Below are positions 13,270 through 61,216 of a DNA stretch of 64,000 bases, one piece after another (position 1 is the stretch's first letter; each line of letters opens with the position of its first letter). Made by a program: the position numbers and the translations under genes. Location: NCBI GenBank assembly GCA_016235065.1, contig JACRMB010000005.1, forward strand, positions 332,733 to 396,732, in the 5' to 3' direction. This DNA is from Actinomycetota bacterium. GTDB taxonomy: Bacteria > Actinomycetota > Thermoleophilia > BMS3ABIN01. Under the pieces are notes generated by a model. The model searched no databases and was not told the origin of the DNA. It saw only the letters and a list, made by a program, of their open reading frames with translations.

Positions 13270-13911
13270 TTATCTCCTGCGGGATCGAGTCCTGATGACA
13301 TAGCCGCCTGCGCCCACAGCCAGCAATCCAGTCACCGGCGCCATCAGCATTAGACCGGTGCCGGGAAGCGAGGCTGGCAACGATGTGGCCGTCAGGACAT
13401 ACGCGTCTTCCTGAACGGTCGTAGTGACAGTGAAGTCTTCACATGCCGGCGTCGTTCCCTGAACTATCAGTACCGCGACCTGATGCTGGCCGGGAGCCGA
13501 CGTCGCCGGCACCATGAAACTACCGCTAAAACTCGCCAGCATGGTGGCGGTATCGTAGTCAGAAGGCATGGTTCCCAGAAGCATCGCGCCGGCCATATCG
13601 GTCTCGACCCACCAGACTTCGAAATCAGGCCCCGGCATGACGATTGAAGGATCGGATTCGGGAGCATCAAATGCTCTCGAGGTTGGAGACAGCATCACCG
13701 AGCCAGACACCGAAAACGCGCTTCCCGCTGGCCCCTGGGACGGGACAACGGAAAATATGCCCCTTTCCGCTCCGCATTCCTGGACTGGCACCTGCGCAAA
13801 AGTTGTCGCCGGAACCAGGCAGAAGAAAGCCAGCGTAAAAGAGAATAAGGCAAGGGCCATCAGCCGATGATTGGGTTTTCCGGGAATCATTCGTGAAATT
13901 CGAAGATTCAT
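13270..13911 (-). CDS. LPxTG-type surface protein (LPGTG), paralogue of the adjacent gene
   Basis: This 213-residue secreted protein has a long signal peptide (hydrophobic core about 17-35, cut after TTFAQ), a single beta-sandwich-like domain with PSQGPAGSAFSVSGS near residue 55, and a C-terminal sorting signal: LPGTG, a hydrophobic stretch and RTRSRRR. Sortase would anchor it to peptidoglycan. It is 4-bp coupled to the upstream paralogue and has a GAAAGGG ribosome site. The domain looks IPT/TIG- or Ig-like, but I cannot name it firmly. Two cysteines (ECGAERG, PACEDF) match those of the paralogue and may form a disulfide. Confidence 0.8.
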   Translation of the reverse strand: MNLRISRMIPGKPNHRLMALALFSFTLAFFCLVPATTFAQVPVQECGAERGIFSVVPSQGPAGSAFSVSGSVMLSPTSRAFDAPESDPSIVMPGPDFEVWWVETDMAGAMLLGTMPSDYDTATMLASFSGSFMVPATSAPGQHQVAVLIVQGTTPACEDFTVTTTVQEDAYVLTATSLPASLPGTGLMLMAPVTGLLAVGAGGYVIRTRSRRR

Positions 13912-14528
13912 GAAACGCCCTTTCTTCCGTTTTTAGATACTCGCCGGCTCCGGCGGACTAACGCACCCGATCCCAGCGCAAGCAGACCAGCCGCAGGAGC
14001 CATGAGTGTCAAACCTGTCGCAGGCAGGGAATTCGCTGTCTGCACATATGCATCCCGGCTCACTGCCTCGGTGACCTGAAAGGCCAGGCATGCCGGATCG
14101 ATATATCCCTGTGGCAGGAAGCCGACGTCGTGATTTCCGGAGGCGGCGTCTGACGGGATCATGATAGTGCCACTGAAGCTGGCAATATCGTTCTGATCGA
14201 TATCCGTTGGCAGCTCGGCGAGCACCTCGCCGCTGTCCATCCATACCATTGCCGTCACCGGGCCGGCGATGCCGGCGGCTGGCACAGGCGCTCCCTCCGT
14301 GGCTCCGCCACCTATATCAAGCCCATACATAACCGCGAACGAGCCGGAAACATCCACGGTGCTTCCCGCGGGGCCAGATTGCGGCGAAAGGAAGAACTCT
14401 CCCTGGATCGAATCCTGGCTGTTGCAGGTACCGATTTGCGTCTGCCGCCCGAGGGCCGGTCCTGTGATGGAAGCCAGGATTGCCAGCATCCCGGCGAAAA
14501 GCATGAGTATCATTAAACGCCGTTTCAT
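13908..14528 (-). CDS. LPxTG-type surface protein (LPATG)
   Basis: This 206-residue secreted protein has the same plan as its downstream neighbour: signal peptide (about 1-27), the shared motif SPQSGPAGSTVDVSGSF, a conserved second cysteine (DPACLAF) and a sorting signal (LPATG, hydrophobic stretch, RRSRRVSKNGRK). The two probably arose by tandem duplication. No cell-surface sortase is adjacent; the nearest is at 56820-57572. The ECF-type promoter motif seen near that sortase is not found upstream of this gene, so it is probably regulated differently. Confidence 0.8.
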   Translation of the reverse strand: MKRRLMILMLFAGMLAILASITGPALGRQTQIGTCNSQDSIQGEFFLSPQSGPAGSTVDVSGSFAVMYGLDIGGGATEGAPVPAAGIAGPVTAMVWMDSGEVLAELPTDIDQNDIASFSGTIMIPSDAASGNHDVGFLPQGYIDPACLAFQVTEAVSRDAYVQTANSLPATGLTLMAPAAGLLALGSGALVRRSRRVSKNGRKGVS

Positions 14529-53061: not shown

Positions 53062-54663
53062 ATGATCTGGGGCAGGAAGAATAAATCAGAGACGGGAATT
53101 CCGGGGGAGTTTGAAGTCGAGGGCCTGGCAACCAGGCATCAGGATGCTACCCGGGAAGCCAGGCAGCGCGGCGCCGAGACGGCAGCCCTGCTCGCCGCGT
53201 CACGGGCGGTGCAGGAATTCCAGGAATTCGCTGACGTGGCCCGCTCCATATTTGACTCCTGCAAGAACCTGATCGGCGCCACCAGCGGCTATATCGCCCT
53301 GCTCAGTGATGATGGTTCCGAGAATGAGGTGCTGTTCCTCGATGCCGGCGGACTCCCCTGTTCTGTCGACGAATCGCTACCGATGCCGATCCGAGGACTG
53401 CGTGGCGAAGTCTACCTTTCCAACAGCGCCGCGTATGAGAACGACTTCATGAACAGCAAGTGGATCGGTTTCATGCCGGAAGGCCATGTGCGCCTCGATA
53501 ACGTCCTGTTCGCGCCACTTCTGATCGATGGCAAAACGGTGGGGCTTCTCGGCATCGCCAACAAGCCCGGCGGTTTCGTGGACAACGACCTGAGGCTTGC
53601 ATCTGCGTTCTGCGACATGGTTGCTTCCGCTCTCTACAACGCCCGAACTTTCGAGTTGCTTGAGAAGAGCGAGGAGCAGTTCCGGAGTTTCGTGGAACAG
53701 TCATCCGATGGAATCGTGATCATCGACAGCAGGGGAACGATCATCGGCTGGAACCGTAGTCAGGAGAAGATAACCGGCATATCCAAAGACAGGGCTACAG
53801 GGCAGCCCCTCTGGGATGTCCAGTACAGCCTCAATCCTCCGGATAACCGGACACCTGAAGCCAAGGTCCGGCTACAGAAAATGATCGTCGACTTCCTGGA
53901 GAACAGGAATCCTTTCTGGACGAACAAACTTATCGAAAGCGAGATCCAGAGGACCGACGGCTCCAGGGCTTTTATCCAGACTATAACTTTCCCTATCAAC
54001 ACCAGCAGCGACTTCATTGCGGCATCCATCACCAGGGATGTCACCCGCCGCAAGACGACGGAAGTGCTGAGCGAATCCCTGAACGATATCAACGCCGCCA
54101 TGAGCTCGACGATGGACCTTGACGAGATCATGGAACGTGTGGCCGGCGAGGCGGTCAAGGTCATGGATTGCGATTCAGCTGCCATCTTCCTGAATGACGG
54201 GGAATACTGGATCCTGAGTGCGCAATATGGCATGCCGGCAAACCTGACCGGCCAGCGCTTTACCGCGGACGAGGCGCCTGCCATGGTGATCGCCGCCAAT
54301 GAGAAGCGGCCGGTTTTTGTTGGCGACGTCCTTTCTGATGACCGGCTCACACGAAAGAAGGACGGCCTTGATGTCGATGTGCGATCGTTCCTGGCCGTGC
54401 CGCTGATCGCGCGTGAAGCAGTAATCGGCGTCATCACCTTCAACCACCATGGGTCACCTTCCAGCTTCGGCGGCGAGCAGGTGGATTTCGCCAGCAAGTT
54501 GAGCGCCTCGGTATCGCTCGCCATCGAGAACGCAAGGCTTTACCAGCAGGAGCAGGATATCCGGGCCCAGATCCAGAGCCATGCGAACCAGCTTTCCATC
54601 CTTCACCGAATCGGACTTTCCCTGACAGCTTTCCATTCTTCACCGCATCGGACTTTCACTTAA
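53062..54663 (+). pseudogene. GAF-PAS-GAF half of a frameshifted SpoIIE-type sensor
   Basis: This 533-residue frame has a GAF domain (about 45-195), a PAS domain (about 205-335, SFVEQSSDGIVIIDSRGTIIGWN), a second GAF (about 345-490) and the start of a linker (LSILHRIGLSL). The frame then breaks. A 37-bp tandem duplication at 54590-54663 adds a few wrong residues and a stop. Deleting one copy restores a single 920-residue protein joined to the phosphatase frame downstream. The encoded protein lacks the MASE3 membrane region of its paralogue and should be cytosolic. The break may be a real mutation, but an assembly error is more likely. Confidence 0.85.
54590..54663. repeat. 37-bp imperfect tandem duplication that breaks the reading frame
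   Basis: Copies at 54590-54626 and 54627-54663 begin AGCTTTCCAT. They differ at a few third-codon positions (ATC/ATT, CGA/CGC, TCC/TCA, CTG/CTT) and by one base at the end. All the substitutions are synonymous in the ancestral frame. Removing exactly 37 bases makes 53062-55861 one open frame. Confidence 0.92.
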
Positions 54664-54685
54664 CCGGGAGACAGACAAACACAGT

Positions 54686-55861
54686 TTGTTGAGGATGGTC
54701 CTCAAGAGCGCCGCCGAACTGACCCTTGCCGGGATCGGCGCCATGATCCTGGTGCGCGAGGGCAAGACTGAGCTGGTGTCGATGTACTACGCTCCGTGGT
54801 TCAGCGAGCGGTGCGAGATCGATCAGGATGCGTCGACTCTGCATCAGAAGATCGGCGCTTTACTCGACAGCGACCGCGATGTCCTGCGAGTCGGAGACCT
54901 AACCAGGCTGTCACGGCCTCTGAATTTCCCCGAAGGGCATCCGGGACTGAGAGGGCTGCTCGTTGGTACGCTGCGCGATACCCATGGCTCTGTCATCGGA
55001 CACTTCATGCTCAGTGACAAAGCCGGAGGCGAGGTATTCACCGTGCAGGACGAGGAGATAATCTCCCTGCTGGCAGCCCAGAGTTCCGTGGCCCTGCTCA
55101 GCGCCGAGACCTTCGAGCGTGAGCATTATGTGGCCGAGACACTACAGTCGGCGCTGCTGCCGCAAGTCCCACTGAGGGAGGATATGGAAGTCGGCCTGCT
55201 ATACCGGTCCAGCGGCAGATACGGGCGGGTCGGTGGCGATTTCTACGACTTCGTCGACCTGGGAGGCAACCGGATCGCCGTGGCCGTGGGCGACGTCTGT
55301 GGCAAGGGGCTCCGGGCCGCGACTTACACAGCCATGATCAAATACATGCTCCGGGCTTATCTCGAGGAAGGACTGCTCCCTGGAGACTGCCTGACCAGGC
55401 TTAACCGGGCGGTGCATAAGGAGATCTCCATCGAGAAATTCGTGACCATGGGTCTGGCCCTCATCGACACGGAACGGATGTCGATCACATATTCTTCCGC
55501 GGGTCACCCTCCGATCATGGTCTGTCGCGACGGCCAGGCAACGCCGCTCTTTGCCCGTTCGGCGGTCCCCCTCGGCGTACTTCCTGATTATAAGTTCCTT
55601 TCTTCCCAGGAACCGCTTGGCGAAAGCAGCTCTGTGGTGATGTACACCGACGGGCTGATCGAAGCGCGGCCCGAGCAGATGGAGCCTTTCGGACAGGAAA
55701 GGCTGGCAGCTGAACTTTCAAAGTGCGAGTCGTTATCTGCTCAGGCTATCGCAGACAAGCTCATCGAATCGGCGATGCAATATTCAGGGGGATCACTGCG
55801 AGACGACATCGCCGTGATGGTCGTCAGGCTTGCCGAAGGCAAGCCTGACCGTACTTCCTGA
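54686..55861 (+). pseudogene. GAF-SpoIIE phosphatase half of the same frameshifted gene
   Basis: This frame is open from about 54631 and the first ATG is at 54686, giving 391 residues. It holds the last GAF domain and a SpoIIE/PP2C phosphatase domain: VGGDFYDFVDLGGNRIAVAVGDVCGKGLRAATYTAM, FVTMGLALIDTERM, then SSAGHPPIMV and LRDDIAVMVVRLAEG. It lines up with residues about 480-858 of the MASE3 paralogue upstream. Independent translation from an internal ATG within the GAF domain is unlikely; it is the C-terminal part of the gene begun at 53062. Confidence 0.85.
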
Positions 55862-55918: not shown

Positions 55919-56461
55919 CTATCTCATCCGCCGCCAATAGATAACCCGTGCTCCAAAAGCCCCTATCGCCACGATCATGCCGATCCCGGCAAGCGCCAGC
56001 AGATAGGTGCCGGTCTTCGGCAGGTTTGATGTAGTGGTCGTCGTGGGTGGTGTAACCGGAGGTGTCTCCGTGGTGCCTGGAGTGTCGTCTGGCGGGGTCA
56101 GATCGGGCGTATCATCCTCCGGAGTATCTTCGGGTGTATCTTCGGGTGTATTCTCATCGTCGAGACCGTCGTCGATGCCCTCGTCATCACCGGGAACCAC
56201 CTCGTCTTCGCCTGGGCAGTTCAGAGAATCCGGATCACCCATATCCTCGCATCCAGGGACACCATCTTCGTCGATTTCGTCAGGCAGGCCCTGCATGTCC
56301 ACGACCGGGAGCCCGGATTCGATCAACTGGATGCCGTCCTCGTGGAGCGGTTTGGAAAACTGACCTTCATCCGCCGGCTGCCAGGCCATTGCCGGAGCAG
56401 CCATGAACAGCGTTACCGCCATCACCATCATAATCATCAATGTCATCGCCATGATCTTCAT
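55919..56461 (-). CDS. Acidic LPxTG surface protein (LPKTG)
   Basis: This 180-residue protein has a signal peptide (about 1-26, AAPAMAW), an Asp/Glu-rich stalk with two cysteines (PGCEDMGD, LNCPGED), tandem TPED repeats near residues 110-120, a Pro/Thr-rich wall-spanning region and a classic LPKTG sorting signal with hydrophobic segment and RRMR tail. It should be covalently anchored to the cell wall. The ATG overlaps the small upstream gene by 4 bp. The pair follows an ECF-type promoter at 56671-56702 and lies beside a sortase-like gene. Confidence 0.85.
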   Translation of the reverse strand: MKIMAMTLMIMMVMAVTLFMAAPAMAWQPADEGQFSKPLHEDGIQLIESGLPVVDMQGLPDEIDEDGVPGCEDMGDPDSLNCPGEDEVVPGDDEGIDDGLDDENTPEDTPEDTPEDDTPDLTPPDDTPGTTETPPVTPPTTTTTSNLPKTGTYLLALAGIGMIVAIGAFGARVIYWRRMR

Positions 56462-56637
56462 CGCTTACATCCTTTCGTTGTTACTGATTGATCCTGCGAT
56501 CCTGCTGTGCTGCTTGCCGCCCCTCCATCCGTCAATTGGAGCCCGGACGCCAGTGACTGGTCAAAGTTGAGTTTAAGCGTCCGGCGGGTACTCGTGCTTT
56601 CCCCGTTGAAGCGTCTCGGCGGTGTTTGTCTGGTCAT
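56458..56637 (-). CDS. Small gene coupled to the LPKTG surface protein
   Basis: This 59-residue product starts at the ATG at 56637, which has a strong GGGAGG ribosome site (an in-frame ATG 33 bases earlier does not). It is a Ser/Thr-rich, basic, soluble peptide (MTRQTPPRRFNGES, LKLNFDQSLASGLQLTDGG) with no membrane segment. It overlaps the LPKTG gene by 4 bp, so it may work mainly as a translational coupler, or be a small regulator. Unknown family. Confidence 0.6.
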   Translation of the reverse strand: MTRQTPPRRFNGESTSTRRTLKLNFDQSLASGLQLTDGGAASSTAGSQDQSVTTKGCKR

Positions 56638-56670
56638 CTCAACCTCCCGTTTCCGTTTATCTGTTTCCAC

Positions 56671-56702
56671 CCTTATGACGGAAATAAGGCGCTGAACTTA
56701 CG
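56671..56702 (-). promoter_or_regulatory. ECF-type promoter of the LPKTG operon
   Basis: Minus strand CGTAAGTT (56702-56695), 14 bases, CGTCATAAGG (56680-56671). The same motif with the same spacing precedes the sortase-like gene and the ECF sigma factor gene. Confidence 0.75.
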
Positions 56703-56735
56703 GGGGATGATTGAATAAATCAGGTACAGGTCTTA

Positions 56736-56788
56736 GGGGTCTTGTGATGCGAAGGGGTCTTGTGATGCGAAGGGTTTTGTGATGCGCT
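56736..56788. repeat. 18-bp tandem repeat upstream of the LPKTG operon
   Basis: Three head-to-tail copies of GGGGTCTTGTGATGCGAA begin at 56736, 56754 and 56772; the third is degenerate. They lie 34 bp upstream of the ECF-type promoter, on the side away from the gene. They could be protein-binding sites or a simple slippage product. Confidence 0.8.
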
Positions 56789-56819
56789 GCAGACAGCTGG
56801 TCAGGGCTACGCTTGACGA

Positions 56820-57572
56820 TCAGGCCGGGCTGCCAGCTGGCAACACCTCATCCAGCCTGCCACGGATGACGATGCGCTGCTTGATATCCCAGGGTGGATC
56901 GCAGGTAAGAAGAGTGATCGTCTCTTCACCAGTCGGCTGCAGAACCGAGACGTCGTCCGGAGTGACGATGAAAGAGTCAGTCACAAGATACACGAAGGTG
57001 GCATAGGGCATCCGAACCGTTATCCGGTCGCCGGTGCCGACCTCATCCAGATGCAGGAAAGGAGCTCCGTAGAGCACCCGGTCGCCGGCAACGGCGAAGT
57101 TGCCGCCAGCCCCGGGGAGCTGCGTCTCCATGATATGACCGGGGCCTTTCGCCAGGGCTGCGTCATCGGAGCCTTCGACGATCATCCACTTGACATCGAT
57201 AGAGGGGATGGATATCTCGCCGACAGGATCCAGGTAATCAATATCCGCCTGCATCGCGGCGGCCTCGCCGGCAAGATATCCGGGATCCACCGAACCGCTG
57301 CCGGAGATGGAGAACAGCGAACGCAGGTCGGACTGGCCCGCGCGCGCTTCAAGAAAGCCATATCCGAAAACGATGCAGGCATAGGTGGCCAGCGCCAGCC
57401 CGGCGACGATCGCCAGCGTGGTCGTCCATCGGAATATCGTCTTTCGCAGCAAGGCCGGCGTGTGTGAGGCCGGCTTATGCAGTCGCCGGACATCGCATGC
57501 ATGGCTGCTCCGCTTCAGCTTTCTTGAGCCGATCCTGCTGCTGTGGTACCTCGTATATCCCCTGGTTTCCAT
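56820..57572 (-). CDS. Sortase-family protein (class D/E-like) with Asp in place of the catalytic His
   Basis: This 250-residue protein has a basic N-terminal tail, one membrane helix (about 50-73) and a sortase domain. The catalytic Cys is in TLLTCDPPWD (C224) and the Arg is R233 (IKQRIVIRG). The His of the usual AVAGHRVTYG-type motif is Asp here (NFAVAGDRVLYGAPF, D164), a one-base change. Sortases need that His, so this copy is either inactive or altered, or the base is wrong. The start is sound (GGAGG then ATG). It has its own ECF-type promoter and lies beside the LPKTG gene, its likely substrate. Confidence 0.88.
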   Translation of the reverse strand: METRGYTRYHSSRIGSRKLKRSSHACDVRRLHKPASHTPALLRKTIFRWTTTLAIVAGLALATYACIVFGYGFLEARAGQSDLRSLFSISGSGSVDPGYLAGEAAAMQADIDYLDPVGEISIPSIDVKWMIVEGSDDAALAKGPGHIMETQLPGAGGNFAVAGDRVLYGAPFLHLDEVGTGDRITVRMPYATFVYLVTDSFIVTPDDVSVLQPTGEETITLLTCDPPWDIKQRIVIRGRLDEVLPAGSPA

Positions 57573-57594
57573 CTTCCCTCCAGTGTCTTGTCTA

Positions 57595-57626
57595 CCTTAT
57601 GACGATGAAGGGAGCGGAAACTTACG
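57595..57626 (-). promoter_or_regulatory. ECF-type promoter of the sortase-like gene
   Basis: Minus strand CGTAAGTT (57626-57619), 14 bases, CGTCATAAGG (57604-57595), about 22 bases before the ATG. Confidence 0.75.
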
Positions 57627-57646
57627 CAGGCTGTTACTACGTTTAA

Positions 57647-59218
57647 TCAGGGATAGACAGAGAGCATCCCAACATATCCCTGCACGGCCTCACCGGCTGC
57701 ATCAGTGGCCGTCACATAAAGATGATAACCCTGGGGAGCGCCTGCCGTCCCTGACGCACCCCAGGTCTCGATACCGCCCGAGGATGACTGGAGGGCCAGG
57801 GAGACCTGGCTGCTGGAACCGTCGTAATCTGATACAAGCGTCAGGGTGGCGGTCCGGGCGTCACCCGAGATCTTCGCCGAATATTTTACGGTACCACCCT
57901 GATAGACCGGATTGGGACTGGCTGATCCAGAGATGACGTCAAGCGGCGCCGATTGCGGCTCTGGCGTCGTGGTGCTCCCCGTGTCATTGCCGGTGGAGGT
58001 TCCGCTGTCGCCTGCAGTAGCCGTATCGTCCACCACCACTCCCGCTGTGGTTTCTGTCGTGGAGGAGACCGCTCCGCTACTGCTGTCTTGTGTACTTACA
58101 GTCGCGGTCATGGTGCTCGACCTTGACGAACCTGTAGCTTCCCTGTCACCAGCATCAGAGCCACCAGTCAGTTCGGCAGTCAGCGCAGCCGCAGCCCCCA
58201 GGATCATAATCGCCGCCAGGGCGCTGATCCAGAAGGCTGGCCTCCGCAGCATCCGGGCGAACTTCGACGGCCCGCTTCCAGGCTGGCCGGAATATATTCG
58301 CGTGGCGTCGAGCGGTTCTACCGCCTCGCCCATGCCTGCGCCGCTATCTCCCGCTCCATGACCAGAACCAGCCTGCCCCGCTTCCCCCACCCCTTCCTCA
58401 GATCCATACTGCCCCATATCCCCCGCTCCACCAGATGCAATCTCGCCAAGCCGGCCCGTGAACGCCTGAGCCAGGCCCGCGGGCGGGATCACCGGGATGA
58501 ACATCCTAAAGGAACGGGAGGCCTCGTTCATCTCCTCGAGTGCGGCGAGGCAGAACGTACAGCCCTCGAGATGGCTTTCCACCATGTCCTTTTCCGCCGC
58601 CTGCAGCTCGCCGTCGATGTAGGGCGACAGCAGGGCTATCACTTCCTCACAATCCGGCGGGCACGATTCTGTCTGTATCTGTGCCATCCTGAGCTCCTCT
58701 CTGAACTTGAGGCGGGCCCGGGAGAGGAGCGCTCCGACCGCATTGCGGTTGGATTCGAGGACATCGGCCATCTGGTCGTAGTCGAGCTCCTCCAGCTCCC
58801 GCAGGATCAACGCCGCCCGCTGATTCTCGTTCAGCCCCCGGGCCGCGCGGCGCACCGTCTCCATCTGTTCCCCGAGGAGCAGAGCCCGCTGGGGGTCGGC
58901 GTAGATATTGGGATCCTCAGGAGTGAGCATCTCCTCGTCGACGTCGACGAAGCGGCTGCGGCGGCGCATCTCGTCATAAGCCAGGTTCTTGGCGGTGCGG
59001 TAGAGGTAGGCGGAGAAGTTCTGGATGTCCCTTTCACCGAGCACTGAGTACATCCGGATAAAAGCATCCTGGACGATGTCAGAGGCGTCGGCGGCATTGT
59101 CCACCAGACGGTAGACGAAGTTATAGACCGGATGCTGATAGCGCTCGAACAGCCGGCGGTATGCTTCCGCATCACCCCTGCCGGCGAGGACCGCCAGTTC
59201 TCTGTCGGTAATCTCCAT
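57647..59218 (-). CDS. ECF sigma factor fused to zinc-finger anti-sigma, membrane and extracellular domains
   Basis: This 523-residue protein has sigma region 2 (about 20-95, YQHPVYNFVYRLVDNAADAS, DIVQDAFIRMYSVL) and region 4 (about 125-175, LDYDQMADVLESNRNAVGALL). Next is an anti-sigma zinc-binding domain with HLEGCTFC (HxxxCxxC) near residue 214. A Gly-rich linker, one membrane helix (about 330-350), a Ser/Thr-rich stalk and a C-terminal Ig-like beta domain follow. Sigma factor and membrane-bound inhibitor are thus one polypeptide, so release probably needs proteolysis or a conformational signal. Its promoter shares the motif found at the sortase and LPKTG genes, which suggests autoregulation. 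Confidence 0.9.
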   Translation of the reverse strand: MEITDRELAVLAGRGDAEAYRRLFERYQHPVYNFVYRLVDNAADASDIVQDAFIRMYSVLGERDIQNFSAYLYRTAKNLAYDEMRRRSRFVDVDEEMLTPEDPNIYADPQRALLLGEQMETVRRAARGLNENQRAALILRELEELDYDQMADVLESNRNAVGALLSRARLKFREELRMAQIQTESCPPDCEEVIALLSPYIDGELQAAEKDMVESHLEGCTFCLAALEEMNEASRSFRMFIPVIPPAGLAQAFTGRLGEIASGGAGDMGQYGSEEGVGEAGQAGSGHGAGDSGAGMGEAVEPLDATRIYSGQPGSGPSKFARMLRRPAFWISALAAIMILGAAAALTAELTGGSDAGDREATGSSRSSTMTATVSTQDSSSGAVSSTTETTAGVVVDDTATAGDSGTSTGNDTGSTTTPEPQSAPLDVISGSASPNPVYQGGTVKYSAKISGDARTATLTLVSDYDGSSSQVSLALQSSSGGIETWGASGTAGAPQGYHLYVTATDAAGEAVQGYVGMLSVYP

Positions 59219-59239
59219 GGCTCTCTCCGCTTGCTCTAT

Positions 59240-59271
59240 CCATATGACGTGATGGATGACGATAAATTACG
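59240..59271 (-). promoter_or_regulatory. ECF-type promoter of the sigma factor gene (autoregulation)
   Basis: Minus strand CGTAATTT (59271-59264), 14 bases, CGTCATATGG (59249-59240), about 21 bases before the ATG. Confidence 0.7.
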
Positions 59272-60994: not shown

Positions 60995-61216
60995 CTAAGC
61001 CCTGGCCTTCCTTGTCAGGAAGTAACCAGCCGCGATCAGACCTGCACCGGCGACTCCGAAAAGGATAACTTCTGCACCAGTTCCAGGAGTGCTCGAGCCG
61101 CTCGACACTGCGCCGTAGCCCTGCGCATTCGCTGAGACATTCAGCCCCAGCACCATCATAGTGGCAATGACGACGCCAACCATTAACAATAAGGCAATCC
61201 GCTTTTTACTCACCAT
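60995..61216 (-). CDS. Small secreted peptide with sorting-like signal (TPGTG)
   Basis: This 73-residue precursor has a signal peptide (about 1-31, cut near NVSANAQ), a mature part of about 12 residues (GYGAVSSGSS), then TPGTG, a hydrophobic helix and a RKARA tail. The TPGTG looks like a variant LPxTG signal. After processing, almost nothing but the anchor remains, so it may act as a membrane peptide. GGGAGG lies just before the ATG. It has its own sigma-A promoter, palindrome and terminator, so it is a well-defined, probably abundant, transcription unit. Confidence 0.78.
   Translation of the reverse strand: MVSKKRIALLLMVGVVIATMMVLGLNVSANAQGYGAVSSGSSTPGTGAEVILFGVAGAGLIAAGYFLTRKARA

Follow-up and report, generated by a model that had tools for sequence, protein, structure and literature searches.

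The sigma factor, sortase and LPKTG locus

The stretch analysed here (the window) comprises 64,000 nt from an uncultured actinobacterium, Actinomycetota bacterium (GCA_016235065.1, contig JACRMB010000005.1, positions 332,733-396,732, forward strand; GTDB lineage Bacteria; Actinomycetota; Thermoleophilia; BMS3ABIN01), the genome of which (G000) amounts to 2.37 Mb in 10 contigs. Three genes on the minus strand encode, in this order, a fused ECF sigma/anti-sigma factor of 523 aa (57647..59218), a class E-like sortase of 250 aa (56820..57572) and an LPKTG surface protein of 180 aa (55919..56461). Upstream of each of them we found an exact copy of the motif CGTAANTT-N14-CGTCATAWGG, also on the minus strand, in agreement with the preliminary description, which had reported three copies with an identical spacing of 14 bases. 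These are the predicted ECF promoters of the sigma factor gene (59240..59271, CGTAATTT-N14-CGTCATATGG), where the site would serve autoregulation, of the sortase gene (57595..57626) and of the LPKTG operon (56671..56702), the last two reading CGTAAGTT-N14-CGTCATAAGG. No fourth site exists in the window even when up to three mismatches are allowed. In shuffled versions of the window 0.20 sites are expected, and three were reached in one of 100 shuffles.

The motif lies 21 nt before the start codon of the sigma factor gene and 22 nt before that of the sortase gene, within the 20-35 bases initially claimed for all three sites; this range does not hold for the LPKTG gene, the start of which (56461) is 209 nt away. 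A figure of about 33 nt for the third site corresponds to the distance to a small upstream ORF (56458-56670) that is probably no gene. We rejected this ORF as a member of the operon because its frame is not conserved and it has no start codon in G003, and the conservation of its DNA exceeds that of the reading frame, which favours an RNA or DNA element.

ECF-type promoters combine an AAC-like -35 element and a CGTC-like -10 element, which precede the regulated gene at a fixed distance from each other. The alignment of the sites gave CGTAA(G/T)TT-N14-CGTCATA as the conserved core, and its two halves, separated by 14 nt in 19 of the 21 exact matches described below, have the form of such a promoter. 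The second half had been given as CGTCATAWGG; CGTCATA is indeed conserved, and the terminal AWGG varies more.

On the plus strand of the window (53062-55861) a GAF/PAS/SpoIIE-type phosphatase gene apparently falls into two ORFs (53062-54663 and 54686-55861), the break being at a near-perfect tandem duplication of about 37 nt (around 54590-54665) that shifts the frame. This may be either a frameshifted gene or an assembly error.

The fused ECF sigma factor

Sigma factors of group 4 (ECF) have only regions 2 and 4 of sigma-70. Only these two regions are present in the fused factor, at residues 1-180 (PF04542, 5e-17; PF08281, 7e-10; TIGR02937, 6e-25). They are followed by a zf-HC2/ZAS-type anti-sigma domain at 185-240 (PF13490 zf-HC2, 1.6e-10 at 190-220) with an HxxxCxxC motif that the alignment showed to be invariant among the orthologues, by a single transmembrane helix at approximately 327-350, and then by a low-complexity linker rich in Ser, Thr and Gly. 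The protein thus has the C-terminal zinc finger, the transmembrane helix and the long outside extension of the fused groups of the ECF48/52/53 type.

The outside part ends in an Ig-like beta domain of about 95 aa (approximately 425-523), for which AlphaFold predicted a seven-strand Ig-like sandwich with a pLDDT of about 90; it is the only confident part of the model, the sigma and anti-sigma parts having none. This domain is homologous to the Ig-like domain found in the regulated membrane proteins described below (hhalign probability 97%, HMM E-values from 1e-8 to 1e-13). Pfam has no name for the Ig-like domain common to sensor and targets, and a fold search with the outside domain returned generic Ig-like matches only (sulfite oxidase, PD-1 and others).

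The sortase and the LPxTG proteins

The sortase (PF04203, 3e-30) aligned with solved sortases, among them the homologues 5go6 and SrtE1 (5cuw), and contains the catalytic His (GPGH), Cys (LLTC) and Arg (KQR). Among the NCBIfam sortase classes the best match was class_E_sortase; the score of 111 bits is below the cut-off of 160, and it is for this reason that we call the enzyme class E-like. Two more sortases are encoded elsewhere in the genome and have no motif nearby.

The LPKTG protein is composed of a signal peptide, an acidic stalk rich in Pro and Thr, the LPKTG signal, a transmembrane helix and the tail RRMR; it scores over the TIGR01167 cut-off, and its translation aligned with those of homologous LPNTG proteins. 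When the LPxTG genes of five genomes were compared, the promoter motif (0-2 mismatches) was found only at genes of the LPNTG(S/T), LPKTGT and LPMTG types, and the best upstream matches of the LPATG, LPSTG and LPGTG genes had 4-6 mismatches. The absence of the motif that had been noted at two other surface-protein genes of the window was borne out. The gene at 13908-14528, which encodes a true LPATG protein, has a best upstream match with at least 4 mismatches, and the product of the gene at 60995-61216, also without the motif, carries TPGTG, a degenerate anchor.

The LPATG gene belongs to a pair of adjacent genes without the motif (13270-14528, minus strand) encoding LPATG and LPGTG wall-anchored proteins, for which one of the other sortases of the genome is probably responsible.

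The motif in the rest of the genome

The 15-base core CGTAAGTT-N14-CGTCATA occurs at six sites of the host genome at no more than one mismatch, against 0.11 expected from base composition, and the three sites outside the window have by themselves a probability of about 2e-4. All three are upstream of genes of the predicted kind, and the motif does not occupy random positions in the genome. The first stands upstream of a gene for an LPNTG surface protein (L010, from 8054), at a distance of 67 nt; the second, 2 kb away on contig 3 (L004/L010; L010 5917-6150), precedes a decayed copy of that gene; and the third is followed after 26 nt by a lipoprotein-like gene (L011) whose product contains an Ig-like domain homologous to the outside domain of the sigma factor. 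At three mismatches the matches were outnumbered in the whole genome by those of a reversed-pattern control and represent noise. One match with two mismatches (C8:33222) is inside a gene and on the opposite strand, and was treated as chance.

In the decayed LPNTG duplicate the predicted promoter is intact, and a signal peptide and a few codons are followed by a stop.

The motif and the sigma factor in related genomes

The motif was compared in seven relatives of the family with an orthologous sigma factor, four of the same genus (one with a broken gene) and three others of the same family, and in 11 relatives without it. The orthologues are 73-86% identical over the sigma and anti-sigma parts. 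In all seven the motif is present upstream of the sigma factor gene, nearly always with the 14-nt spacer, and its conservation extends to the sortase and LPNTG genes in every case that could be checked: it precedes the sortase gene in the intact loci of G001, G006, G007, G011 and G014, and the LPNTG genes of G001, G003, G006 and G007, while in G011 it precedes an LPMTG gene (two mismatches). Unlinked targets in these relatives encode proteins with Ig-like domains (G006, G014) and LppP/LprE-type proteins (PF14041; G007, G011, G014). Scanning of spacers from 8 to 20 gave 21 exact matches in seven genomes, the two without a 14-nt spacer being a site in G003 (15 nt) and one other (20 nt); the reversed pattern gave no exact match over the same spacers. 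Together with the genome-wide counts and the conservation, this spacer test led us to reject chance as the origin of the motif.

The presence of the motif tracks that of the sigma factor. Of the sigma-positive relatives 7/7 have one or more sites with 0-1 mismatch, versus 2/11 of the sigma-negative ones (Fisher P = 0.001); the latter have two such matches in total, which is the background level. One of these, in G015, has one mismatch; the other is an exact copy upstream of a lipoprotein gene in G002 (L099 1408-1436), a genome of the same genus. From the co-occurrence, the positions and the logic of autoregulation we infer that this sigma factor recognises the motif. The G002 copy shows that the motif can persist in a genome without the orthologue or be read by another factor, and it may be either a relic or a site recognised by another ECF factor.

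The latter case can be extended to the whole set, the promoters being read by another ECF factor and the fused factor counting only among the genes under its control. Four further, ordinary ECF-like matches are indeed encoded in the host genome, and the G002 site is kept without the fused factor. Nevertheless, no genome without the fused factor has a set of several sites, ordinary ECF factors are found in the motif-poor relatives as well, and a motif before the factor's own gene is in the typical position for ECF autoregulation, so we consider this explanation improbable. Still harder to sustain is that the motif represents a transcription-factor operator and no promoter element. Operators can be as long and as strongly conserved as this motif; however, it is directional, non-palindromic and always oriented with the downstream gene, its nearly fixed 14-nt spacer, CGTC-type -10 and AA(G/T)TT -35 are those of ECF promoters, and its position about 18-22 nt before the sigma factor start codon leaves space for a transcription start just upstream of the ribosome site. 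That a single upstream region was recently duplicated nearby, with the shared motif as a by-product, might be suggested by the location of three sites within 2.6 kb and of two contig-3 sites before paralogous genes with common flanks; it can practically be dismissed, as the spacers and flanks differ among the other sites, the 14-nt spacers show no sequence relationship, and further contigs and other genera have a nearly invariant core upstream of non-homologous genes.

Outside the family the association of the genes is found once more. In G057, from another family of the class, a fused sigma factor with 40% identity follows LPFTG and sortase genes on one strand, in one apparent operon (L142 4501-7768), and the promoter motif was not found at this triad despite the same set of genes. 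No sortase gene was present within about 1.5 kb of 21 more distant homologues of the fused factor in the class, which indicates that the link between sigma factor and sortase is clade-specific.

A conserved leader element upstream of the LPKTG gene

A conserved element of about 85 nt (56523..56606, minus strand) lies downstream of the third promoter and ahead of the LPKTG gene. It is a candidate for a structured RNA, with two possible hairpins (CCGGACGC/GCGTCCGG and CTCCA/TGGAG). In G001, G003, G006 and G007 the block has 85-98% identity, and G004 retains part of it. Wherever the motif accompanies it, the element starts roughly 85 to 100 nt after the motif start. The position of the LPKTG operon promoter relative to it is kept in G001, G006 and G007 (14-nt spacer) and in G003 (15-nt spacer). 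The element is confined to genomes with the fused sigma factor; neither the remaining members of the family nor any other genome in a 399-genome sample of the class contained it. Rfam gave no credible match. As the fold of the single sequence was no more stable than those of shuffled sequences, the case for a structured RNA rests on five sequences, among which the two hairpins show three compensated base pairs.

The proposed regulon

Taken together, we regard it as very likely that the locus represents a dedicated, autoregulated cell-envelope regulon under a membrane-tethered ECF sigma factor, built around a dedicated sortase. The preliminary description had proposed that the sigma factor reads the motif, activates itself and controls a wall-anchoring module, a reading that the conservation of the motif and its co-occurrence with the factor support. 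The present analysis adds to it the unlinked members (the second LPNTG gene, the operon of the Ig-domain lipoprotein and the LppP/LprE-like proteins), the conserved leader element and the occurrence of the sensor's own domain in its targets.

By analogy with other fused factors, the protein would be made as a membrane protein, with the sigma and anti-sigma domains inside, one helix and the Ig-like domain outside, and would remain tethered until released by proteolysis. In the resting state the anti-sigma segment would hold the sigma domains. A signal from outside, or a change in the state of the outside domain, may then lead to cleavage, as in IutY and as proposed for ECF52, and the sigma domains would probably be freed in this way. 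Once in the holoenzyme they would read the CGTAAGTT-N14-CGTCATA promoters, raising the expression of the factor's own gene, of the class E-like sortase, of the LPNTG and LPKTG proteins, and also of the membrane-anchored proteins with the sensor's Ig-like domain. The LPxTG proteins of the regulon would be the substrates of this sortase.

The outside domain common to sensor and targets suggests feedback. A closed loop could be envisaged in which the Ig-like domain of the sensor binds, or competes with, the regulated Ig-domain proteins and the sortase-anchored proteins. That the factor would gauge the stock of its own surface products through this domain, with a new leader RNA, the candidate of about 85 nt, tuning the LPKTG branch, is a speculative extension which we think rather unlikely as a whole.

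One genome contains two classes of sortase substrates, the regulated LPNTG/LPKTG proteins and the unregulated LPATG/LPSTG ones, which suggests that a common promoter pairs a sortase paralogue with its substrates.

Comparison with known systems

Fused ECF factors are known, and so are sortase clusters; no description of a fused ECF factor combined with a sortase was found in the open literature searched. ECF factors of the fused, membrane-tethered kind are common in Actinobacteria; to our knowledge, promoter and regulon have been defined for very few of them. Since the regulon described here is small, conserved and coherent, its promoter, its targets and its likely output, covalent surface display, are directly testable.

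The hallmarks of ECF52 are a proline-rich linker and a carbohydrate-binding module. In the factor studied here the linker is rich in Ser, Thr and Gly, and Pfam detected no carbohydrate-binding domain; the Ig-like fold of its outside domain is compatible with sugar binding but gives no indication of it. The overall architecture of the factor is the one described for the fused groups ECF48, ECF52 and ECF53, with release by proteolysis being proposed (PMC8999054), and SCO4117 of Streptomyces coelicolor, a member of ECF52, has the putative motif CSGYN-17bp-SRHA (PMC5826349). Our factor shares with these groups the ECF sigma and zinc-finger anti-sigma domains, the transmembrane segment, the low-complexity linker and the outside domain, as well as the occurrence in Actinobacteria, the inferred autoregulation and the proposed proteolytic release (PMC5826349, PMC8999054). 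It differs from them in its outside domain, Ig-like and of about 95 aa with no annotated carbohydrate-binding or glycosidase domain, and in its predicted targets, namely a sortase, the substrates of this enzyme and proteins with the sensor's domain. The promoter motif is also different from that of SCO4117 (PMC5826349).

IutY of Pseudomonas putida (ECF243) likewise combines a sigma factor and a membrane anti-sigma factor in one chain, and its activation by regulated intramembrane proteolysis was shown experimentally (PMC8999054); however, it serves iron-siderophore surface signalling in a Gram-negative host, with another outside domain and other targets. As for the sortase, it resembles the SrtE enzymes of Streptomyces and Actinoplanes in that its best match is class E and it is related to SrtE1, and is unlike them in its predicted LPNTG/LPKTG substrates, in the linkage of its gene to a fused ECF sigma factor and in its score below the class E cut-off. 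The SigP/PorXY system of Porphyromonas gingivalis, which controls the type IX secretion system and in which the surface cargo PorA feeds back, is also governed by an autoregulated ECF sigma factor acting on a surface-attachment machine that includes a sortase, PorU (PMC7712824). Nevertheless SigP is activated by a response regulator and has no fused anti-sigma domain, and its sortase and secretion system are unrelated to those described here.
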